DNA from: a virus
Reading direction: 5' to 3' (one strand)
Virus record (IMG/VR): IMGVR_UViG_3300035670_007445
Location: 1-20,624 of that record
Length of the DNA: 20,624 nucleotides
Shown here: positions 5,464-20,624 of the stretch, piece after piece
How the letters are laid out: the number at the start of each line of letters is the position of its first letter
How positions within the stretch are numbered: the stretch's first letter is position 1
The notes under the pieces: model-generated
Database searches by the model: none
What the model was told of the DNA's origin: nothing
The model's input: the letters and a program-made list of their open reading frames with translations, nothing else
Program-made: the position numbers and the translations under genes

Positions 5464-6907
5464 ATGGCAACTGGATCGTTCCCTATGTAAAATCGTAGCT
5501 TTGGGGAACTAAAACCAATTCTAATATACGGCGAAAGTCCTTTACATAGGAAAACGCCTTGGAAGACGAAAGTCACCAACAGAGACTAAACGAATTGGGC
5601 TGAGAAGCAGTATGTAATAGTCCGATCTGCACCTATAAATAAAAGTGCAGAGGATAGCAGAAATGACTATCCTGTTCATTGAAAATATGCTATAATAGTG
5701 ACAGAAGTTTTAAGAAAGGAGCAGTCCCTTGGAATAAAGGAAAGAAAAGCCCTTGGACTACTAAAAGAAACCTAGAGAGAAACCATTTAATGATAGGTGA
5801 AAATGCTTATCATTGGAAAGGCGGTAAAACTACTAGGGAGAGAAAGATTTTAATGGGCCGAAAAAAGTATCAACTTTGGAGATTGGCGGTATTAGAAAGA
5901 GACTCTTGGACTTGCCAAAGTTGTCGCATAAAAGGAGAATCTTTACACGCTCATCATATAAAACCTTGGGCTTCATATCCAGATTTAAGATATGATGTTG
6001 AAAACGGCGTAGCACTTTGCGTTCCTTGCCACCAATTATTGCATTCAATGAATAGTAACAAAAAATGACAGCTACTGAGACAAATACAACCCTAGCCTCA
6101 GTAATCCCTGGTTTGTTCGCCGAAAAAATGAACAACTGGTATAAAGACGAGTTAGTCTGTGCTAAATTTTTCACTGATTTATCAGCTGACATCTCTAGCG
6201 GTGCTAAAACTCTCTTGATCCCAAACATTACAGCAATGACTGCTCATAGCAAATCAAATGCTACAGTCGTTACTCTAAATAACCCGACAGACAACCAAGT
6301 CACTTTAACAGTGGACACTTGGTATGAATGTTCTTTCGCAATTGAAGACAAAGAAGCTGAACAGGTCAAGAAATCATATAACTATATGAGTGTCTTGGCT
6401 AAAAACGCAGCTGCTACTGTCGCGCAGGCTTACGAAGATGCAATCATCGCTTTGTTTGATAACTTCTCACAGACCGTTGGTACATCTGCTGCTGCTCTTG
6501 CTGACAGCAACATCCGTCGCGCTATCCAATACTTGGATGCAGCTAACGCTCCTAAGAACGATCGTGCTTTCATCTTATCCACCAAACAAGTTTGGTCAGA
6601 TTTAATGGGCATCGATAAATTTACCTTAGTTCAGAATGCACCTGGTGCAGATCCTGTAATGAAAGGTATGGTTGGTTACTTATATGGTATCCCTGTAATC
6701 GCTTCAAACCGCATTGGCACAACCTTAGGTTCTGCCCAAGGCTGTTTAGCTCACAAGGACGCTATCGTACACGCTTCTACAATTATGCGCGTTCAATCCA
6801 ACTACATCCCACAATACTTATCAACAGTAACAACTGCTGATGTAGTATTTGGCTGCATTGAGAACCGTGACTCAAGTGGCGTATGGATCAAGACGGCTGC
6901 CTCGTAA
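5464..6907 (+). CDS. Major capsid protein, gene split by a group I intron
   Basis: I read this coat gene as two exons. Exon 1 is 5464-5484 and encodes MATGSFP. Exon 2 is 6068-6907 and starts with the codons for TATETNTT. Splicing keeps frame and gives 286 residues. Without splicing, the first frame meets TAA two codons into the intron. The protein resembles P22-type or N4-gp56-like coat proteins in size and layout: an N-terminal arm, then strand-rich segments (KTLLIPNITAMTAHS), a spine-helix-like stretch (NYMSVLAKNAAATVAQAYEDAI) and a C-terminal domain ending in AAS. It follows scaffold, as expected. A gene caller would begin the protein falsely at ATG 6065, whose three bases are the last three of the intron. 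The start has the TAATATG context. Confidence 0.88.
5485..6067 (+). ncRNA. Group I self-splicing intron in the coat gene
   Basis: Every core helix is visible. P1: exon GTTCCCT (5478-5484) with GGGGAAC (5503-5509), ending in the U-G pair at the splice site. P3: CCAATT/AATTGG (5515-5520, 5593-5598). P4: GGCG/CGCC (5530-5533, 5555-5558). P5: TCCT/AGGA (5538-5541, 5548-5551). P6: TTGG/CCAA (5559-5562, 5576-5579), with P6a closed by GAAA. P7: GACTA/TAGTC (5584-5588, 5618-5622). P8: GCT/AGC closed by GAGA (5599-5608). P9: TCTGCAC/GTGCAGA (5626-5632, 5645-5651). P9.1: GGATAG/CTATCC (5652-5657, 5667-5672). P10: GTAGCT (5495-5500) with exon-2 AGCTAC (6070-6075). The last intron base is G, as required. 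It carries an HNH gene after P9.1. Confidence 0.95.
5679..6068 (+). CDS. Intron-encoded HNH homing endonuclease
   Basis: The enzyme should cut intronless coat genes near the insertion site and so spread the intron. The 129-residue protein begins with the PWNKGKK segment often seen before HNH domains of intron endonucleases, then a basic linker with WKGGKTTRERK. The HNH core has zinc ligands CQSC (about 90-93) and CVPC (about 117-120), and the catalytic HAHHIKPW and NGVAL between them. The only start that keeps the PWNKGKK part is TTG 5679. The first in-frame ATG is 5790. Its stop TGA (6066-6068) spans the 3' splice site, so its last base is the first base of coat exon 2. Confidence 0.88.
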   Translation: MKICYNSDRSFKKGAVPWNKGKKSPWTTKRNLERNHLMIGENAYHWKGGKTTRERKILMGRKKYQLWRLAVLERDSWTCQSCRIKGESLHAHHIKPWASYPDLRYDVENGVALCVPCHQLLHSMNSNKK

Positions 6908-7053: not shown

Positions 7054-7611
7054 ATGTCTAATTGTCATAGTTGCGGAGCGGAGTTGAGTGGATTAAAAAA
7101 AATGTTCTGCTCAAAAAAGTGCAAAGCTAAAAAGAGGTGGTCAAGAATGACCGAAGAAGAAAGGGAGAAACAGAGAGAAGAAAACAGAGCAAGGTATGCG
7201 CAAAACAGGGTGGCATACCTAGAGAACAAAAGAGAATATTATCAGAAAAGAAAAAAAGAAATTAAGAAAAAAAATTCTTTGTATAAGAAGTTAAACCCTT
7301 GGACTGATAGAAAATACGCTTTGAGTATTAAAGGTAAATACAGAGATTACAAAAAAGGAGCAAAGAGCAGAGGATTAAAATTTGAAATCACATTAAAAGA
7401 TTTTTCTGATTTTAAAGGAGTGAAGTGTCATTACTGTGGCGATGTATTTGAAGAAATTGGCATAGACAGGGTAGATAACAAACTTGGCTATGTCAAAGGT
7501 AATATGGAGTCTTGTTGCCCAATATGTAATAGAATGAAACACGCATTCACTAAAAAAGAGTTTGTAGAAAAGTGCATAAAAATAGCACACAACCACATTA
7601 ACACAATTTAA
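7054..7611 (+). CDS. Free-standing HNH endonuclease with zinc finger
   Basis: This 185-residue protein begins with a zinc-knuckle region, CHSC at residues 4-7 and CSKKC at 19-23. A long, highly charged, likely helical linker follows (residues 30-90, rich in Glu, Arg and Lys). It ends in an HNH-type nuclease: CHYC (about 125-128), then GIDRVDNKLGYVKGN with the conserved Asp-Arg and Asn, and CPICNRMK (about 152-159). It is not inside a recognisable intron, so it is probably an intergenic homing endonuclease. It has its own promoter candidate (6952-6980) and a start in the TAATATG context, although that TAA ends no gene. It is unrelated outside the metal core to the intron enzyme. Confidence 0.8.
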   Translation: MSNCHSCGAELSGLKKMFCSKKCKAKKRWSRMTEEEREKQREENRARYAQNRVAYLENKREYYQKRKKEIKKKNSLYKKLNPWTDRKYALSIKGKYRDYKKGAKSRGLKFEITLKDFSDFKGVKCHYCGDVFEEIGIDRVDNKLGYVKGNMESCCPICNRMKHAFTKKEFVEKCIKIAHNHINTI

Positions 7612-8070: not shown

Positions 8071-9150
8071 ATGTATAGCCCGAATGTCTTTATGATCGGA
8101 AGTGGGTATGGCGGTTGTAATAAGGTGCGTATAAACTTACCGGCTGAACACAATGGTTTTCGTATGGCTCAACCGTCACTTAGTGGCGATAGAAGACCAA
8201 CCAATGAGATAAGAGACGAACTCGCAGCCGCTGACGTCGTAGTGTTCCACCGAGCCGAAGAACAGACTTACCACGATTTATCCAAGATGCTTAAAAAAGA
8301 CGGCAAGAAAATAGTAATGGATAATGATGATACTTTTGTCCTTGAAGATAACCACCCATTAGCACAGTTCAACGCCGATGGCACAGTCCAAGATAACCTG
8401 AAAAGACGAAGTGACAATATAGACGAGTTTATGCGGATGTGCGATATGGTAACGACTACGACAAAGACACTCGCCGAAGAATACAAAAAGCATAATAAAA
8501 ATGTAGTGATATTGCCAAACTGTATTGACCCTGATGACTGGGACACACCATTACGAAACGATGGCGACAAAGTGAGAATAGGCATATTCGGCAGTGCCGC
8601 CCTAGAATACGATTACTTGCACTTAAAAGATTATATCCGAGAATTAAGCGAGCGACCTGACATAACAATTTGTATGATGGGCTTAGGTGATAAAGAACAC
8701 CGCCGAAAGAACCCAAAAGTCACACAGGTTTTTCACGAAGAGTACGCTTTCTGGGATAGTATCAAGATTGAACACACAGCTTGGATGCCAGTTCACTTAA
8801 TGCCACAAGCCTTGAATGAAATGCGACTAGACATAATGCTCATACCACGCAAGGACAATTACTTTAACCGGTGCAAATCAAACTTAAAGTTTTTAGAGAG
8901 TGCGATGTGTGAAGTACCAGTGGTGGCTCAATCGTTTACAGATGGCCCTTATGAAGAGATAGAAGACTGGGTAACAGGCGTGCTGATAAAAGACAACAGC
9001 GAGTGGAAAGAAAAGGTTGAAAAGCTGATTAAAAATAAAGAGCTTAGACGACAAATAGGTAAGAACGCCAGAGAGTATGTCATCAAGAATTACGACATCG
9101 CAGACCACGCCTATAAATGGGATGAAGCGTATAAATCACTATTCAAATAA
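8071..9150 (+). CDS. GT-B glycosyltransferase (family 1/4-like)
   Basis: This enzyme should move a sugar from a nucleotide-sugar donor to a glycan or protein in the host cytoplasm. The 359-residue length fits a GT-B enzyme. The C-terminal half carries the donor-binding pattern: KVRIGIFGSAALEYDY (about 168-183), DITICMMGLG, and the PRKDNYFNRCKSNLKFLES stretch (about 262-280), which holds the conserved Glu of GT4-type enzymes, followed by EVPVVAQSFTDGPYEEI and a family-typical end (LRRQIGKNAREYV). The N-terminal half has DADVVVFHRAEEQ-like acceptor-domain features. It opens a run of sugar genes inside the structural operon. Donor and acceptor are unknown. Confidence 0.82.
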   Translation: MYSPNVFMIGSGYGGCNKVRINLPAEHNGFRMAQPSLSGDRRPTNEIRDELAAADVVVFHRAEEQTYHDLSKMLKKDGKKIVMDNDDTFVLEDNHPLAQFNADGTVQDNLKRRSDNIDEFMRMCDMVTTTTKTLAEEYKKHNKNVVILPNCIDPDDWDTPLRNDGDKVRIGIFGSAALEYDYLHLKDYIRELSERPDITICMMGLGDKEHRRKNPKVTQVFHEEYAFWDSIKIEHTAWMPVHLMPQALNEMRLDIMLIPRKDNYFNRCKSNLKFLESAMCEVPVVAQSFTDGPYEEIEDWVTGVLIKDNSEWKEKVEKLIKNKELRRQIGKNAREYVIKNYDIADHAYKWDEAYKSLFK

Positions 9151-9151
9151 T

Positions 9152-9463
9152 ATGTTAGTCGAAATAAAAGATAAAAAGTTAGAAGGAATTTTAAGCGAAC
9201 GGGCTGTATATCACAAAGAGGTCGGCGAAATAATGGAAAAGATGATGGCCCTTGATAAAGAAAAAACCAAGCTCGCCTATAAGTTAGACAAGCTCAAAGA
9301 AAAGACCAAAGTAATAATGGATAAATTAAATCCAAAGCTAGAAGAGTTTGAGTTTATCTCACGGGTATTTATGGAAAAAGGTGTCGCTTATTACGAGGTG
9401 CTAGATCAGATTGAAGAGTATAAAAAAGCAATTAGAGAAGATAGAGTCAATAAATTGAAATAA
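9152..9463 (+). CDS. Coiled-coil hypothetical protein (103 aa)
   Basis: Residues 15-65 form a long, highly charged heptad-like helix (KEVGEIMEKMMALDKEKTK, then KLAYKLDKLKEKTKVIMDKL). A second helix runs through the C-terminus. No catalytic or membrane motif is seen. The start is ATG 9152, in the TAA-T-ATG junction after the glycosyltransferase. An upstream in-frame ATG at 9077 lies inside that gene. It might be a structural or scaffold-like partner. The role is unknown. Confidence 0.65.
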   Translation: MLVEIKDKKLEGILSERAVYHKEVGEIMEKMMALDKEKTKLAYKLDKLKEKTKVIMDKLNPKLEEFEFISRVFMEKGVAYYEVLDQIEEYKKAIREDRVNKLK

Positions 9464-9464
9464 T

Positions 9465-9878
9465 ATGCGAGTCGTTTTAACCGCCGCTGTAATGGACCTT
9501 TGCCACGAAGGGCATATACGTCTGCTAAAAGAGATGCGAGCCAATGGCGATATTGTGGTGGTGGTTTTACACGACGATAAAAGCGTATATGAAATAAAAG
9601 GAAAGATACCGGTTCAAGATGTTTTACATAGGATGAACAATCTGCATATTACAGGCTTAGTGGATAGGGTGCTAGTTACGATGAACGTTGATCCAGCTGA
9701 TAAGTTCCAAGAGGTAATAAGCACCTATGGAGAAAAGAATATCCTGTTTATGCGAGCAGATGATAATAAGAACTTTCCAGGTAAATGGATAATTGAAAAC
9801 TATAACATACCAATTAAGTATGTTAAATATACCAAAGGCGTGAGCAGTAGCTTAATCAGAAAGAAATTATGCAAATAG
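9465..9878 (+). CDS. Cytidylyltransferase-like nucleotidyltransferase
   Basis: Enzymes of this fold activate a phosphorylated polyol or choline with CTP (TagD/GCT, PCT), or a sugar phosphate with ATP (RfaE). The 137 residues match a minimal single domain. HEGH at residues 14-17 is the HxGH nucleotide-binding signature. An IVVVVLHDDKSVYEIKG stretch (30-46) follows, and SSSLIRKKL near the C-terminus is a variant of the ISTTxIR motif. GKIPVQD fits the GRxP-type substrate loop. Lying five genes-lengths from a LicD-like transferase, it probably supplies CDP-linked donor to it. The precise substrate cannot be read from the sequence. The last ten bases overlap the next gene. Confidence 0.8.
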   Translation: MRVVLTAAVMDLCHEGHIRLLKEMRANGDIVVVVLHDDKSVYEIKGKIPVQDVLHRMNNLHITGLVDRVLVTMNVDPADKFQEVISTYGEKNILFMRADDNKNFPGKWIIENYNIPIKYVKYTKGVSSSLIRKKLCK

Positions 9879-10168
9879 TATTCCTACTATTTCTACACCA
9901 CTTAGCCGATGTCGCTTTGCAACCAAGCTGGCTCATAAAGCAAAAGTATCATTGGTTCAGAGTGTACGAGCATTCGTTTATCTGGGCAGGGGTGATTTCA
10001 ATGGGGTTGTACTGGCTAGATAATTTCAGTCTTTGGAAGTTCATTTTTCTACTTGTCGGACATTTCGTAATTGATTTTATTAAGTATAAGCACAAGCAAT
10101 TCTGGCTTGTTTATCCCGATCAGTTTTTACACTATATACAAGTTTTAATAGTATGGACCATAAAGTAG
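9869..10168 (+). CDS. DUF3307-like membrane protein (99 aa)
   Basis: Three hydrophobic segments are visible, at about residues 3-12, 35-52 and 57-70, and a fourth near 85-97. Conserved-looking polar residues fit DUF3307: HHLADVALQPSW (10-21), GHFVIDFIKYK (64-74) and the late DQFLH. DUF3307 has no established biochemical function. In this island it could anchor or supply the sugar-modifying enzymes at the membrane, which is inference. The start overlaps the end of the cytidylyltransferase gene by ten bases, and its own end overlaps the LicD-like gene by 16, so the three genes are translationally coupled. Confidence 0.7.
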   Translation: MQIVFLLFLHHLADVALQPSWLIKQKYHWFRVYEHSFIWAGVISMGLYWLDNFSLWKFIFLLVGHFVIDFIKYKHKQFWLVYPDQFLHYIQVLIVWTIK

Positions 10169-10689
10169 CCCTAGAAAACCTAAAAGATATACGGGACGTG
10201 CTAAACCAGTATCCAGTAAAGTGGTGGCTAGACGGTGGCACTTGTATCGGAGCGGTTAGAGAAAAAGATTTTGTCGCTATTGATGAAGATACTGATATTG
10301 GGGTGCTAGAAGAGACTTATAACGACGAGATTACACAAAAGATTTTAGATAAAGGTTTTCACCTAGAAGCAAAATACGGTACAAGAGATAAAGGCTACGA
10401 ATTAGCTTTTGTGAGAAATGGAGTTAAGACAGATATATTTTTCTACTACTTGAAAGACGGTAAAAGGTGGTACGCGATGTACGCCGACAAGATGATCCCA
10501 ATGGTTTATCCGGCAGACACTTTTGAAGAGCAAATGGACATAGATTTTCTAGGGCATACTTTCAAAATACCAGTTAAATACGACCAGTACCTAACGATAA
10601 AGTATGGTGACTATATGACCAAGATTAAGCGTGAAGATTGGGACTGGACAACCGGACCGAAAAATATAGATATGAGTTTTATAAAGTGA
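10153..10689 (+). CDS. LicD-like phosphotransferase
   Basis: LicD family proteins transfer phosphocholine, or polyol phosphate in related forms, from a CDP donor onto a sugar. Residues 24-50 contain the hallmark WWLDGGTCIGAVREKDF and then DEDTDIGV, matching the family LDGGTLLGAxRxxxfIPWDDDxDI pattern with its metal-binding acidic cluster. KTDIFFYYLKDG (about 94-105) and the late LTIKYGDYM also fit. The usual length is 250 or more residues, and 178 is compact. With the cytidylyltransferase just upstream, activation and transfer steps are both encoded. The target glycan is unknown. The gene ends TGA-T-ATG into the next transferase. Confidence 0.82.
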   Translation: MDHKVALENLKDIRDVLNQYPVKWWLDGGTCIGAVREKDFVAIDEDTDIGVLEETYNDEITQKILDKGFHLEAKYGTRDKGYELAFVRNGVKTDIFFYYLKDGKRWYAMYADKMIPMVYPADTFEEQMDIDFLGHTFKIPVKYDQYLTIKYGDYMTKIKREDWDWTTGPKNIDMSFIK

Positions 10690-10690
10690 T

Positions 10691-11332
10691 ATGGACATCA
10701 CAATACTGATAAAGACGTTCAAAAGGCCACGAATGCTAGACCGATTACTGACTAGCATAAAAGAATACGCCCCAGATATTAAAATAGACGTACTAGACGA
10801 TAGCGATACTAACATAGGTATATCAGCAGGACGCAATCAGTTAGTCGCTAGGTGCAAAACAAAATACTGTATGATACTGGATGATGATTGTATATTCACG
10901 CCAAAGACGAACCTCGAAAAAGCGATTAAAATATTAGAAGAAAGAGATTTAGACCTATTGGAAATACAAGTGCCAGGTTTGAATTATAGAGGACATTTTA
11001 AGATAAAAAACGACGAGATAGAAGCTGTTCAAGCAAACGAAGGAGAATATTTTGATTTTATAACTAACATATTCGTTGCTAAGACTGATGTTTTAAGAAA
11101 ATATAAATGGGATGACAGGATGAAGATTGGAGAGCATACATCATACTTTTTTACGCATAGGGGTAAAATGAAAATAGGAACGACGGACCAAGTAACAATA
11201 AGGCACGAACACGTTAGCCCGCCTGGATATAATATCTACCGAAGCAGAGGCGAGGATTATGTAAAGATTTTTATGCGAGAAAATGGCATTAAAAGACTCC
11301 ATACCGTAACAGGTGAATACATAGTAGTATGA
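10691..11332 (+). CDS. Glycosyltransferase resembling beta-1,4-GalNAc transferases
   Basis: The 213-residue protein has a GT-A layout. An N-terminal strand (ITILIKTFKRP) is followed by AGRNQLVARCKTKYCMILDDD, with the metal-binding DDD at residues 64-66. The arrangement, then FDFITNIFVAKTDVLRKY and TTDQVTIRHEH near the end, recalls animal beta-1,4-N-acetylgalactosaminyltransferases of family GT12, as I remember their RN...DDDF...ARTD...H pattern. That likeness is from memory and needs a profile search. A general GT2 enzyme is the fallback. The ATGA overlap (11329-11332) couples it to the deacetylase. Confidence 0.72.
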   Translation: MDITILIKTFKRPRMLDRLLTSIKEYAPDIKIDVLDDSDTNIGISAGRNQLVARCKTKYCMILDDDCIFTPKTNLEKAIKILEERDLDLLEIQVPGLNYRGHFKIKNDEIEAVQANEGEYFDFITNIFVAKTDVLRKYKWDDRMKIGEHTSYFFTHRGKMKIGTTDQVTIRHEHVSPPGYNIYRSRGEDYVKIFMRENGIKRLHTVTGEYIVV

Positions 11333-11940
11333 TTTTCCGCAATGATGACCTAGCCTATGGGGTGGATATAGAACAATACAAAGAAATACAGTCAATTTTT
11401 GAAGGATTTGGGGTAAAAGAGATGTATTCGGTGGTCGCAATAGGTGGTAATTTATACGCTGGCGACCCATTTACAATGGCAAACAACGATTTAGAAAGGT
11501 TTTTAGGCACAAAGTTAGTATATGAAGACGAAAAAGTTGATGAGTTTATTAAAAATAGCCTAGCAAAAGGTCACACAATATCGTTACACGGTTGGCAACA
11601 CACTAAAATAGCTAAATATTCGTATAAAGACCAGCTAGACAATATAAGTAGTGCTAAAAAGTTGCTAGAAGATAGGTATAAAGTAGAAATAAAGTATTTT
11701 GTGCCACCATTTAACAATTACAATAGCGCAACCCAAGAAGCGTGTAGCAAACTGGGGCTTAAAATACTAGGCACAAGTGAAAATCAGTTAGAAAGAGCGG
11801 TTAGAGAAGACTTGAAATTACCGGATAATGATTTTACTTGGTATCACGCTTGGCGGTTTTATCAAAATGGCTTAACCCCTGAAAAATTGAAAGATTATCT
11901 AACAAAGTATGATATCAATAATAATTCCAATTTGGGGTGA
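11329..11940 (+). CDS. Polysaccharide deacetylase (NodB-like)
   Basis: Polysaccharide deacetylases remove N- or O-acetyl groups from sugars using a metal held by Asp-His-His. Here N5-D6-D7 (FRNDD) supplies the first aspartates, and ISLHGWQH gives H87 and H91 in the HxxxH spacing. FVPPFNNYN resembles the RPPF-type motif 3, and YHAWRF near residue 174 is a fitting late histidine motif. At 203 residues it is a bare catalytic domain with no signal peptide, so it would act in the cytoplasm, probably on sugar intermediates of the island. It overlaps its neighbours at both ends: ATGA upstream, and 32 bases with the GT2 gene downstream. Confidence 0.78.
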   Translation: MIFRNDDLAYGVDIEQYKEIQSIFEGFGVKEMYSVVAIGGNLYAGDPFTMANNDLERFLGTKLVYEDEKVDEFIKNSLAKGHTISLHGWQHTKIAKYSYKDQLDNISSAKKLLEDRYKVEIKYFVPPFNNYNSATQEACSKLGLKILGTSENQLERAVREDLKLPDNDFTWYHAWRFYQNGLTPEKLKDYLTKYDINNNSNLG

Positions 11941-12490
11941 TAAATATAAAGAGTTTTTACCAAAAGCAATTGCGAGTATTGAATCCCAGACATATAAAGA
12001 TTATGAGATTATTATATCGGATCAAGCGACTGACCTACCAACTGCCCGTAATCAAGGGATAAAAAAAGCTAAGGGTGAGTATATTCTGTGTTTAGATGCT
12101 GATGACCAATTACACCCAGAGTTTTTAGAAAAAACACTTAAAGCAAACGATGATATAGTCGGGACTTGGTGGAAAGAGTATGGGGACTACGAAAGTGAGA
12201 TTAAAACACCAGAGTTACACCCCAAATTGCCGCACTTTTTAGACTATAATCGTATAACTTGTACAGCACTTTACAAAAAAGAAGTCTGGGAAACAGTGGA
12301 AGGATATGACGAAACAATGAAAGACGGGCTAGAAGATTGGGATTTCTGGTGTCAAGCCTTAAAAGCTGGTTATACGGTAACGATTGTCCCTGAAATACTA
12401 TTCTTTTACTGGAAGCACGGAAACACAATGATTGAAAGTAATCGCCAAAATCACTTAAAGATTTATAACTACATAAAAAGCAAATTATAA
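11909..12490 (+). CDS. GT2-type glycosyltransferase
   Basis: This is a GT-A enzyme of the GT2 superfamily. The N-terminal ISIIIPIWG strand, SIESQTYKDYEIIISDQ (nucleotide-binding half) and ARNQGIKKAKGEYILCLDADD (DADD at 63-66) are textbook features. The late EDWDFWCQAL at about 142-151 is the catalytic ED/W region. Its length (193 residues) is short but complete for a single-domain enzyme. The start lies inside the deacetylase gene, 32 bases before its end, so the two are coupled. It ends TAA-T-ATG into the adaptor gene, which marks the return to virion genes. Confidence 0.85.
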   Translation: MISIIIPIWGDKYKEFLPKAIASIESQTYKDYEIIISDQATDLPTARNQGIKKAKGEYILCLDADDQLHPEFLEKTLKANDDIVGTWWKEYGDYESEIKTPELHPKLPHFLDYNRITCTALYKKEVWETVEGYDETMKDGLEDWDFWCQALKAGYTVTIVPEILFFYWKHGNTMIESNRQNHLKIYNYIKSKL

Positions 12491-13519: not shown

Positions 13520-17112
<3,593 letters not shown>

Positions 17113-17434: not shown

Positions 17435-18178
17435 ATGGCTTTAACAGACAATCTTGTCGGTTATTGGAAGTTAGATGATAGCGGTGATGACGAAATTAGC
17501 ACCAATGATTTAACTTTGACAAACGGGAGTTATGTCACTGGTAAAATAAACAATGGTGCTGATTTTACTGGTGCGTCTAACAGTTATGCAACATTTACGA
17601 CTAAATTATCAACTGTTTGGGACAGCGCTTATACAATTACAATGTGGGTAAATGCTGCTACATTAGATACAACTAATGGTAACGTTTTATTGTGGCCTGG
17701 CGACAGAAATCAACAGCACATTATCAACAACATAGAAAAAAAATTAGAGATAACTACCTACGATGGGACTGCAGCAAGTACTGTTGGGACAACAGTTTTT
17801 TCTACTGGGACTTGGTATTTTATTGCCTTTCAACGAATAAGTGGTACAGAGGGCAAGGTTTGGGTGAATGGGGCTGACGATACATCAACAACTAAAGCAA
17901 TGCGAAATCCAGCGGGGACATTAACACAAGATTTTAGATTAGCGAGCAGGCAAGACGCAACCGCTGCAAACTTTGACGGCATAATCGATGAAGTCGGTAT
18001 TTGGTCTAGGGCTTTATCATCAACTGAAATATCTACTCTGTATAATTCTGGCAATGGTCTGGCCTATCCTTTCTCGTCTTCTGCAATTAAGACGATAAAT
18101 GGTTTGAGCCGTAGCTCAGTCAAGACTGTAGGGGGTCTCGCTATCGCAAGTTTAAAAAGTTTTAATGGTCTTCAATAA
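17435..18178 (+). CDS. LamG/concanavalin-like lectin protein
   Basis: The 247-residue protein has a laminin-G-like jelly-roll. Clear signatures are LVGYWKLDDSG at the start, NGADFTGASNSYATF, YTITMWVNAATLD, TGTWYFIAFQRISG and the closing NFDGIIDEVGIWSRALSSTEI, all typical of LamG-3 domains that bind sugars. The last 30 residues are three short repeats ending IKTINGL, VKTVGGL and LKSFNGL, which I take as a coat- or fibre-binding tail. ATG 17435 is chosen by the TAG-T-ATG junction. It probably decorates the virion or helps it adhere to glycans of the host. Confidence 0.82.
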   Translation: MALTDNLVGYWKLDDSGDDEISTNDLTLTNGSYVTGKINNGADFTGASNSYATFTTKLSTVWDSAYTITMWVNAATLDTTNGNVLLWPGDRNQQHIINNIEKKLEITTYDGTAASTVGTTVFSTGTWYFIAFQRISGTEGKVWVNGADDTSTTKAMRNPAGTLTQDFRLASRQDATAANFDGIIDEVGIWSRALSSTEISTLYNSGNGLAYPFSSSAIKTINGLSRSSVKTVGGLAIASLKSFNGLQ

Positions 18179-18179
18179 T

Positions 18180-18650
18180 ATGCCGACTGGTGTTTATATA
18201 AGGACAAAAGAATACAGAGATAAGATGAGCAAGGCTGGTAAAGGGCGCATTGTTTCTGAACAAACAAGAAAAAAAATTAGCTTGTCCAATAAAGGGGTCA
18301 AGCCTAAACCTTGGACTGTTGAGGCTTCTGTAAAATCAAGAAAAGGTAAGCATCTCACAGATGAGCATAAGAAAAAAATAGGCAGAAGTGGGGTCGATAG
18401 TAAATCTTGGAAAGGTGAAGACGCTAGTTATGCCGCCAAACACATCTGGGCTAAATACTGGCTTAATGATCCTGGGAGTTGTGAATGCTGTGGGACTAAA
18501 ATAAATCTCCAGTGGTCAAATAAAGATCATAAATACCAAAGAGTAGCGACTGATTGGAAAAGACTCTGTGCTAAGTGCCACCGACAATATGATGACTTTA
18601 CTTTTGGGAAGCGAGAGCCTTGGAATAAAAATAAAATAAATATTACTTAA
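18180..18650 (+). CDS. HNH endonuclease with NUMOD3-type N-terminus
   Basis: The 156-residue protein opens with repeated basic helices: TKEYRDKMSKAGKGR, SEQTRKKISLSNKG, and DEHKKKIGRSG. This is the NUMOD3 DNA-binding pattern of homing endonucleases. The HNH part has CECC at about 98-101 and CAKC at about 127-130. NLQWSNKDHKYQRV lies between them, with an Asp-His in place of the usual His-His, and the protein ends in PWNKNK. The start is ATG 18180, in the TAA-T-ATG junction after LamG. No intron is visible around it, so it is free-standing. It would cut at its own vacant site in related phages. Confidence 0.8.
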   Translation: MPTGVYIRTKEYRDKMSKAGKGRIVSEQTRKKISLSNKGVKPKPWTVEASVKSRKGKHLTDEHKKKIGRSGVDSKSWKGEDASYAAKHIWAKYWLNDPGSCECCGTKINLQWSNKDHKYQRVATDWKRLCAKCHRQYDDFTFGKREPWNKNKINIT

Positions 18651-18655
18651 TTATT

Positions 18656-18874
18656 ATGGAGGAAACATCTAAAATGACACTAACAGTAGCGGGGATAGTA
18701 TTTTCTCTCTGGACAGTGATGTTCGGCTATGTAATGAATAGAATAAAGAAAATTGAAGATAAACAAAGTTCCATTGATTGTTCAAATACAAATATCCAAA
18801 CACAGTTAAGCCAGATCCAAACGGACATATCTTGGATTAAAATGGAATTATCAAATTCAAATAAGAAAAAATAA
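18656..18874 (+). CDS. Holin-like membrane protein (72 aa)
   Basis: One membrane segment is visible at about residues 8-25 (MTLTVAGIVFSLWTVMFGYV). A coiled-coil-like, Gln-rich helix follows (IKKIEDKQSSIDCSN, then TQLSQIQTDISWIK), with a basic C-terminus (SNSNKKK). This layout fits a small holin, spanin-like or other membrane-anchored lysis protein, although no sequence motif is decisive. ATG 18674 is an alternative start with GGAGG at 18658-18662, 11 bases upstream. It would still contain the whole membrane segment. The gene lies between an HNH gene and the zinc-ribbon cluster. Confidence 0.5.
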   Translation: MEETSKMTLTVAGIVFSLWTVMFGYVMNRIKKIEDKQSSIDCSNTNIQTQLSQIQTDISWIKMELSNSNKKK

Positions 18875-18908: not shown

Positions 18909-19070
18909 ATGGTGAAAATGATGTTTTACTGTTTCACTTGTTATGCTTTTGAAGAGCATACCGTTCATTATATCTACGTTGACGGTGAACTTGTATCGGT
19001 TGAGACGACCTGTTTGAAATGCAAGTCCGTAAAATTACGGCACTCGCTCAAATACGGAGAAAAGCAATGA
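18909..19070 (+). CDS. Zinc-ribbon microprotein 1 of the cluster (53 aa)
   Basis: It has CFTC at residues 8-11 and CLKC at 35-38, a two-knuckle zinc ribbon with a strand-rich middle (VHYIYVDGELVSVETT). AAGGAGG lies five bases upstream of the ATG, a strong Shine-Dalgarno sequence unlike the starts of the structural genes. It opens the five-gene array, and its stop overlaps the next start as ATGA. The function is unknown. No enzyme motif is present. Confidence 0.72.
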   Translation: MVKMMFYCFTCYAFEEHTVHYIYVDGELVSVETTCLKCKSVKLRHSLKYGEKQ

Positions 19071-19246
19071 TACAGTTAACTCATCAGACTTGTCTGTGCT
19101 TTCGTTGCAAGCGGATAACGGTTCACGATTTGCGAGTATATCAGATAGACGGCATTGTAGAAAAAATACAATATCAATGCTGTTGCTGTCGGCTTCGCTC
19201 CGAAAGGTTTATCTACTATAACGAGGTGAAAGATGAAAATCGTTAA
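19067..19246 (+). CDS. Zinc-ribbon microprotein 2 (59 aa)
   Basis: CFRC at residues 11-14 and CCCC at 38-41 form the metal site. An extra Cys at residue 9 makes the first site CLCFRC. The C-terminus is Asp/Glu-rich. The start ATG 19067 overlaps the previous stop, preceded by GGAGAAAAGCA, a usable Shine-Dalgarno sequence. An upstream in-frame ATG at 19019 lies inside the previous gene and would add a basic leader. I prefer 19067. It ends 14 bases inside the next gene. Confidence 0.7.
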   Translation: MIQLTHQTCLCFRCKRITVHDLRVYQIDGIVEKIQYQCCCCRLRSERFIYYNEVKDENR

Positions 19247-19394
19247 TGAGTATTTTATCTTTACAGTCTGTATCTGGTGTGGTCAAAAGACCAAGCAACA
19301 GGTAGTAAAGACTTTTGAGGATATGGTTTTGAAACGCTGGCAAGTAATTTGCTGTAATTGCAAACACGAACAAGACAGGGGTGTAAATGGATAA
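19233..19394 (+). CDS. Zinc-ribbon microprotein 3 (53 aa)
   Basis: CIWC at residues 13-16 and CNC at 41-43, with C40 forming a CCNC group, give the zinc site. The middle carries an acidic helix-like stretch (VVKTFEDMVLKRW). GAGGTG lies four bases upstream of ATG 19233 as a Shine-Dalgarno sequence. The gene overlaps its neighbours at both ends. Its length equals that of members 1, 4 and 5. Confidence 0.7.
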   Translation: MKIVNEYFIFTVCIWCGQKTKQQVVKTFEDMVLKRWQVICCNCKHEQDRGVNG

Positions 19395-19548
19395 TGCGTA
19401 TGAGCTGGTCAAACAATGGTGTGAACACTGTAAAGCTGAACTGTTACACGAACACGGCGTAACTTTTCACGGGCGTGAAATTATCGGCGAGTTTTTTACC
19501 TGTATTAAGTGTGACAAAACAGTTCGCTACAAAAAGGAGCGAAAATGA
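19387..19548 (+). CDS. Zinc-ribbon microprotein 4 (53 aa)
   Basis: CEHC at residues 12-15 and CIKC at 39-42 form the knuckles, separated by a His-rich section (LLHEHGVTFHGREI) that might also bind metal. The C-terminus is basic (RYKKERK). A GGGGTG sequence just upstream serves as a weak Shine-Dalgarno sequence. The stop overlaps the next ATG in the ATGA form. Confidence 0.7.
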   Translation: MDNAYELVKQWCEHCKAELLHEHGVTFHGREIIGEFFTCIKCDKTVRYKKERK

Positions 19549-19706
19549 TTACACGGTCAATAGAAGTGAAACGAGTAATGATGCGGTGTCCGAAGTGCGA
19601 TAAAGACACCCTGCATATTGCGTTCTGTTTTCCACGACTTGAAACTGATGTGGTCGCACTAGCGGTCTGTTTCACCTGCCTACTCACCCTCCTTGATAAG
19701 GCATAA
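19545..19706 (+). CDS. Zinc-ribbon microprotein 5 (53 aa)
   Basis: CPKC at residues 15-18 and CFTC at 42-45 form the metal site. Compared with the other members, the C-terminal half is hydrophobic (VVALAVCFTCLLTLL), so it may be membrane-associated or more tightly folded. AAAAGGAGC lies five bases before the ATG, a good Shine-Dalgarno sequence. It is the last gene of the array and is followed by hairpins. Confidence 0.7.
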   Translation: MITRSIEVKRVMMRCPKCDKDTLHIAFCFPRLETDVVALAVCFTCLLTLLDKA

Positions 19707-19787
19707 GCCACGGCGTGAGCTGTTGCCAACGCCTTACTGGTTCAGCAGTCCAGTCTAAAACTGCTATTTCATTATTAAACTTTCTAT
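19707..19787 (+). terminator. Hairpin pair after the zinc-ribbon array
   Basis: GGCGT (19712-19716) pairs with ACGCC (19729-19733), and AGCAGT (19744-19749) pairs with ACTGCT (19760-19765). The latter is followed by ATTTCATTATT, which is T-rich but broken. Together they look like a partial intrinsic terminator or RNA-stability element between the array and the next gene. The call is tentative because the T-run is weak. Confidence 0.4.
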
Positions 19788-19934
19788 ATGAAAGGTTTTA
19801 AGAAATGGTTAGAGCGTAAATGTATAGCGATACAAAAACGCAAAGACTTGCAGTGGTTTGATGATTATACTTTTATCATTATTCTGCTCGTAATTGCGAT
19901 AAGTTTTATTTTTTATGTTGCAAACGCCAATTAA
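19788..19934 (+). CDS. Membrane microprotein (48 aa)
   Basis: A basic cytoplasmic N-terminus (KGFKKWLERKCIAIQKRK) is followed by one strong membrane segment at about residues 28-44 (TFIIILLVIAISFIFYV). The layout, with positive charges before the segment, suggests an N-in single-pass protein. No Shine-Dalgarno sequence is obvious: the ATG lies in TTCTATATG. It overlaps the peptidase-like gene by 20 bases. A lysis accessory role is possible but not shown. Confidence 0.55.
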   Translation: MKGFKKWLERKCIAIQKRKDLQWFDDYTFIIILLVIAISFIFYVANAN

Positions 19935-20624
19935 ATGTATCCAATACGCCACGAAAGAAAACTTAAAACAGCCTATCGGCGGAGTGCGTATTGATGTAAA
20001 AGAAAAAGACCATTATTTAGGCGGTGACTATGACTACTCTATTTTACAAGATAATAGCTCTTGGCTAGGTGTAGTCCAGCAAATGATAGATGAAGGCGAA
20101 GACATATTTGAATTTCAGCGCATTGCTGACGGGCGGGATTTATATTGGTGTATTACTTATGCTTCTAATAGTGCGGATAAAATTATACATAAAAGAAAAT
20201 ACGGGTATTCTCTTGATATGGATGAGCGTTATCTCGCTATTGGATCAGGGACTAAAATGTATGTCGGTAATTCGCAACAGGCAGTTGAGGATTTTAAGAG
20301 AAAATATGGTTTTTTAGTAGAAAATAAGAACGCTTCTGAAATGACGTGGGCGGAGTGTTGGTCTAGCATAACGAGCAATGAGATAAAAGAGGGTCAAGAT
20401 AATTTAGAGTTTTATTCTTTTAGTTATAAATATTTACCCAGGTTGCATAATGGTTTTAGCAGTCTCCCGTATTGTTCAAATGACGAACTATATAACGCAT
20501 TAAAAAGAAGACCTATAAATGTGTGCGTAGACGGTCATTATGTTATGGATGAGCAAAATAGAATTGGGGGGACAACAGGTAATTTAGGTAGGATAATTGA
20601 TTACACACACGCCGTTCTTTACCT
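19915..20624 (+). CDS. Papain-like cysteine peptidase, partial (cut by window end)
   Basis: The reading frame stays open from ATG 19915 to the last base, 236 codons without a stop, so the true C-terminus lies outside. It is easily missed because it has no stop here. The order of features fits a C1-type peptidase. C79 sits in RDLYWCITYASNSADK, followed by YGYSLDMDERYLAIGSG, where C1 proteins have a Cys-helix then a Leu-Ser-x-Arg-Tyr-Leu segment. PINVCVDGHYVMDE near 200-213 and H232 in DYTHAVLY match the later catalytic His. Such enzymes can be virion- or wall-associated. A confident call needs a profile search and the full gene. Confidence 0.55.
   Translation, partial: MLQTPIKCIQYATKENLKQPIGGVRIDVKEKDHYLGGDYDYSILQDNSSWLGVVQQMIDEGEDIFEFQRIADGRDLYWCITYASNSADKIIHKRKYGYSLDMDERYLAIGSGTKMYVGNSQQAVEDFKRKYGFLVENKNASEMTWAECWSSITSNEIKEGQDNLEFYSFSYKYLPRLHNGFSSLPYCSNDELYNALKRRPINVCVDGHYVMDEQNRIGGTTGNLGRIIDYTHAVLY

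Follow-up and report, generated by a model that had tools for sequence, protein, structure and literature searches.

What are five very small, overlapping and apparently zinc-binding genes doing in a phage genome, and do they share a common origin? This question is raised by a locus near the right end of an IMG/VR virus record, the whole of which (20,624 bases, hereafter the window) was analysed. The record encodes a terminase, a portal protein, a capsid protein, an SU10-type adaptor, glycosylation-type genes, a collagen-like fibre gene and a LamG-domain gene. The locus (18909-19706) is composed of five co-directional plus-strand ORFs, with putative products designated P1 to P5:

18909..19070, + strand: P1, putative zinc-ribbon microprotein of 53 aa (CFTC-x23-CLKC); Shine-Dalgarno (SD) AGGAGG, -11.4 kcal/mol
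19067..19246, + strand: P2, putative zinc-ribbon microprotein of 59 aa (CFRC-x23-CCCC); ATGA overlap with P1; SD GGAG, -6.6 kcal/mol
19233..19394, + strand: P3, putative zinc-ribbon microprotein of 53 aa (CIWC-x23-CCNC); SD GAGGTG, -7.2 kcal/mol
19387..19548, + strand: P4, putative zinc-ribbon microprotein of 53 aa (CEHC-x23-CIKC); SD AGGGG, -6.9 kcal/mol
19545..19706, + strand: P5, putative zinc-ribbon microprotein of 53 aa with a hydrophobic C-terminal tail (CPKC-x23-CFTC); ATGA overlap with P4; SD AGGAG, -7.9 kcal/mol

The successive overlaps from P1 to P5 amount to 4, 14, 8 and 4 bases. The ORF coordinates thus reproduce exactly what an earlier note on this DNA had described, i.e. overlaps of 4 to 14 bases and four proteins of 53 residues beside one of 59. 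The strong SD sites reported there were also recovered at all five starts: anti-SD energies at the chosen start codons range from -6.6 to -11.4 kcal/mol and outdo approximately 92% of the ATGs in the window (about 8% of 394 attain -6 kcal/mol). For P2, the ATG at 19067 (59 aa) reaches -6.6 kcal/mol, compared with -2.7 kcal/mol for the start of the longest ORF at 19019 (75 aa). A single five-domain gene split by frameshifts was considered and rejected, since each of P1-P5 has its own ATG, stop codon and SD site in the window. Judging from the window alone, we read P1-P5 as separate genes, as in the earlier note, and not as pieces of a larger one. The ATGA junctions and the overlaps of 8-14 bases suggest that all five would be translated together from one mRNA in a coupled manner. 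One-to-one coupling could fix the stoichiometry of a single hetero-oligomeric complex of five ribbons, and both the overlap at every junction and the similar SD strengths of P2-P5 would suit such an assembly; gene overlap is, however, common in phages, and a complex of this kind, one of the options in the earlier note, gained no support from the analysis and is considered quite unlikely.

The two CxxC knuckles per protein, already recognized in the earlier note, are present in all five proteins, and their spacing, which its author overlooked, is identical throughout (CxxC-x23-CxxC). A single spacing in five of five proteins would be expected at about 2.5e-5 if spacings were drawn independently from a local background, and this figure is rough because the background comprised 105 short two-knuckle ORFs from other fetched loci, non-genes included. 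The background spacings were widely spread, with x23 the most frequent (12/105), and when the window was shuffled 100 times with its dinucleotides preserved, two adjacent x23 ribbons never occurred. As for conservation of the cysteines, on which the earlier note had placed weight, all 20 are retained among paralogues that share approximately 20-30% identity with P1, the comparison being confined to the paralogues. These observations support the view that the short metal-binding proteins constitute a real set.

Structure prediction, proposed in the earlier note, pointed in the same direction. The AlphaFold model of P1 (pLDDT 83 overall and >88 over residues 1-40) is a confident zinc ribbon-like fold of four strands (E2-8, E13-24, E27-35 and E41-46). 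The model of P5, the most divergent of the five, is less confident (pLDDT 75) and has three strands followed by a C-terminal helix. The best structural neighbours of P1 include the ribbon of the RNA polymerase I subunit RPA12, the TFIIS ribbon (1tfi; rmsd 2.2 over 44) and the ribosomal protein eL42, with Z-scores of 4.4-5.1. Since unrelated folds score just behind them, these neighbours support the predicted fold class and do not speak for function. No Foldseek match of P1 was better than E 0.1, the nearest models in a viral structure library were mostly small uncharacterised phage proteins, and no ribbon match of P5 exceeded Z 2.3. The defining features of a generic zinc ribbon, two CxxC-type knuckles on beta-hairpins, are thus seen in the x23 motif of all five proteins and in the P1 model, and more weakly in the P5 model. 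On the basis of motif and models, P1-P5 are very probably zinc ribbons, each of which would bind one zinc through its four cysteines.

A duplication origin, also put forward in the earlier note, was supported by the shared spacing, the zinc-ribbon models and the residual similarity of neighbours. In permutations with the cysteines held fixed, likeness beyond the cysteines was detected for P1-P2 (p 0.003), P2-P3 (p 0.016) and the whole set (p 0.018), and P1 and P2 matched each other in BLASTP with an E-value of 7e-4 (single-pair comparison). The same permutation test revealed no such likeness for P3-P5, P2-P4 or P2-P5. No repeated DNA of at least 12 bases marks a recent duplication, the sole 12-base match linking unrelated parts of P1 and P5. 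Taken together, the common spacing, the residual similarity of neighbours and the lack of recent-duplication repeats make it likely that P1-P5 are an old tandem duplication family. The opposite view, that unrelated zinc-ribbon microproteins were gained singly at a permissive locus, draws on the fact that single two-knuckle microproteins, some of them with x23, are common in phages with related terminases (TerL), and that one viral contig (L250) has two ribbons in a row. It is nevertheless very improbable, given the single spacing in five of five proteins, the similarity left between neighbours and the equal lengths.

What these proteins do is best approached through their fold and their possible partners. 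We favour, with a probability of about 0.5, the reading that P1-P5 are paralogues encoded in one operon, each consisting of one zinc-ribbon domain, that they arose by old tandem duplication and that they may act as nucleic-acid or polymerase-binding regulators. Each copy would have diverged toward a different partner, most likely a nucleic acid or the host transcription machinery, and P1-P5 may thus be small proteins that control the expression of phage or host genes. Such a target is suggested by the fold, the mildly basic charge (pI 7.7-8.7, net charge +1 to +3) and phage precedents, and the ribbon neighbours of P1 (RPA12, TFIIS and eL42) all belong to nucleic-acid machinery. However, zinc ribbons also serve as plain protein-binding or structural domains, the structural matches are weak (Foldseek E >0.1; Z at most 5.1, and no better than 2.3 for P5), P1-P5 are only mildly basic, and the array lies between virion and possible lysis genes and not among recognisable early regulatory genes. 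The specific assignment of P1-P5 as nucleic-acid or polymerase-binding regulators is accordingly tentative, at somewhat less than even odds.

Short, divergent and co-expressed orphans are typical of phage accessory inhibitors. P1-P5 are short, very divergent, without homologues found and, by their layout, co-expressed; they could therefore be anti-defence or host-takeover factors, each ribbon blocking its own target among the defence or metabolic proteins of the host while the copies diversify under an arms race. Known defence-linked families yielded nothing more than two weak PADLOC matches of P3, though, and the neighbourhood offers no hint of counter-defence, so this role, likewise suggested in the earlier note, gained no support from the analysis and is judged unlikely. 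Another proposal, possible but doubtful, is a new fast-diversifying phage zinc-ribbon family encoded in one compact overlapping operon, each copy having a different host or phage partner; if true, P1-P5 would amount to exchangeable binding modules supplied together on a single transcript. Small zinc ribbons are frequent phage orphan genes, mostly without an assigned function. P1-P5 form a natural series (one scaffold, five surfaces) that is small enough to be expressed and tested together, and their operon is a good place to learn the binding partners of phage zinc ribbons.

The precedents for the preferred regulatory reading are the phage C4 zinc regulators Ogr (PMC3931495) and Mu Com (PMC6483171). 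The late-gene activators Ogr of phage P2, Delta of P4 and B of 186 are likewise small C4 zinc proteins with a near-equal knuckle distance, yet their second cysteine pair is spaced by x4 and they occur in one copy, whereas P1-P5 have x2 and five copies. The Ogr motif, CX2CX22CX4C (PMC3931495), is found in none of the five proteins. Pfam and NCBIfam searches with E-values of up to 10, in which the HMMER filters drop most weak matches, did not list the Ogr/Delta profile for them. The knuckle spacing of Mu Com is about 16, shorter than x23, and is absent from P1-P5; nor did the Com profile appear among the Pfam matches with an E-value of 10 or less. Com has 62 residues and carries a C4 zinc finger at its N-terminus (PMC6483171). 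It acts as an mRNA-binding translational activator of mom, a gene that this record does not have. The ribbons of TFIIS, RPA12/Rpb9 and eL42 are akin to the predicted fold of P1, but they belong to cellular proteins, score weakly and have no sequence relation to P1 beyond the knuckles.

Multiplication of zinc ribbons in a phage has been published for Bacillus phage G (approximately 35 copies), for which transcription-factor or DNA-binding roles were suggested (PMC7824862), so expansion itself is not new. The two cases share a lineage-specific multiplication within one phage, with some of the phage G copies close together. In the stretch of the phage G genome examined, however, the proteins are 92-118 aa long, have CPxC followed by CxxxC-type or other spacing, share the tail WKENDRYLAK and are spaced loosely among other genes, while P1-P5 are 53-59 aa long, have CxxC-x23-CxxC, overlap and have no common tail. 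When the translated genes were compared by reading, P1-P5 therefore did not belong to that family of about 100 aa with CPxC and a WKENDRYLAK-type tail. Of the phage cases known, Ogr, Com and the phage G ribbons come closest, and P1-P5 fit none of them in the tests run. What is new is the compact array itself, in which five microprotein genes overlap at every junction, have a single spacing in common and lack relatives in the searches made.

The profile search proposed in the earlier note gave no match above cut-off for P1-P5 in Pfam, PHROGs or NCBIfam; P3 approached Pfam Cys_rich_KTR below the threshold (E 3e-4; 20.9 bits against a cut-off of 25.5) and is not assigned to it. A close-relative scan of viral contigs with P1, P2 and P4 returned nothing, tblastn of P1-P5 against 50,697 phages (E up to 10) returned chance-level fragments only, and a profile search of 50 TerL-related records, run without a positive control, gave no match. 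A local profile applied to approximately 30,000 ORFs retrieved only P1-P5 and three weak matches. In partial pattern scans covering 2.9 million viral contigs, no other array of three or more ribbons came up. Among the matches listed by a tandem scan with a GGAG anchor, most were not arrays but repetitive, collagen-like tail DNA read out of frame. Two stricter scans, which required ATGA between the ribbons and TGTG or TGTA at the first codon, yielded 22 and 38 contigs, mostly of low complexity; since they admit just x23, an ATGA start and a handful of codon starts, they cover part of the possible layouts. The only other plausible pair in the scans was that of L250, two neighbouring small CxxC-x23-CxxC ORFs on the minus strand near 900-1130 of the stretch examined.

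TerL relatives are abundant and some carry single x23 two-knuckle microproteins, none of them a run. In five contigs with common capsid, portal and adaptor genes (L242-L246) there was no two-knuckle ORF in sequence that does not clearly reach the equivalent place; L242 and L243, the two nearest by capsid (85%), either stop shortly past the fibre genes or carry other genes. The same five-gene order, sought in related phages at the suggestion of the earlier note, was thus not encountered, as no relative with these genes was found. No account of such an overlapping zinc-ribbon array was found in the literature either, and the partial searches agree with the earlier statement that no named system has this layout. 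The array appears rare in the sampled space, and uniqueness beyond the partial scans is not claimed.

The array is flanked by the following features:

18656..18874, + strand: upstream neighbour with an apparent single membrane segment and a coiled-coil-like region; weakly holin/XhlA/BhlA-like (sub-threshold in Pfam/PHROG)
19707..19787, + strand: non-coding gap 3' of the array that may form hairpins (19690-19800 folded as RNA, z -2.3)
19915..20622, + strand: downstream ORF, cut off by the end of the record

The upstream neighbour has an SD site at the ATG at 18674, the gap has no Rfam match, and the downstream ORF, which had no library or PDB match, is perhaps a papain-like peptidase, a guess by eye. 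With the array placed after the fibre and LamG-domain genes and adjoining a weakly holin-like gene, P1-P5 might be zinc-stabilised structural or lysis-timing helpers of the late module, acting with the holin-like and downstream gene products. This is improbable: P1-P4 have no signal or membrane segment by eye, and we know of no lysis cassette with a zinc-ribbon array.

Several other features of the record were observed. The start of the terminase gene bears a tandem partial duplication, in which 1372-1671 recurs at 1745-2044 (84% identity) and 1320-1371 at 1690-1741 (90%). A truncated terminase-like ORF (1369-1893), left by the duplication within 1320-2044, precedes the full gene, and the duplication may be either biological or a product of assembly. 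In the genome collection, TerL has a single relative (L247; terminase 66% identical), a contig in a Nanoarchaeia MAG bin; since this contig is itself phage-like, the bin does not settle the host, and a nanoarchaeal host is doubtful. Three homing-endonuclease-like genes are present (5679-6068, 7054-7611 and 18165-18650), one of them an HNH gene, one cysteine-rich and HNH-like by eye, and one with a NUMOD3 domain. Sugar or surface-modification genes lie inside the virion module (8071-12490 and 13520-14599) and include several glycosyltransferases, a cytidylyltransferase, a LicD-like gene and a polysaccharide deacetylase.
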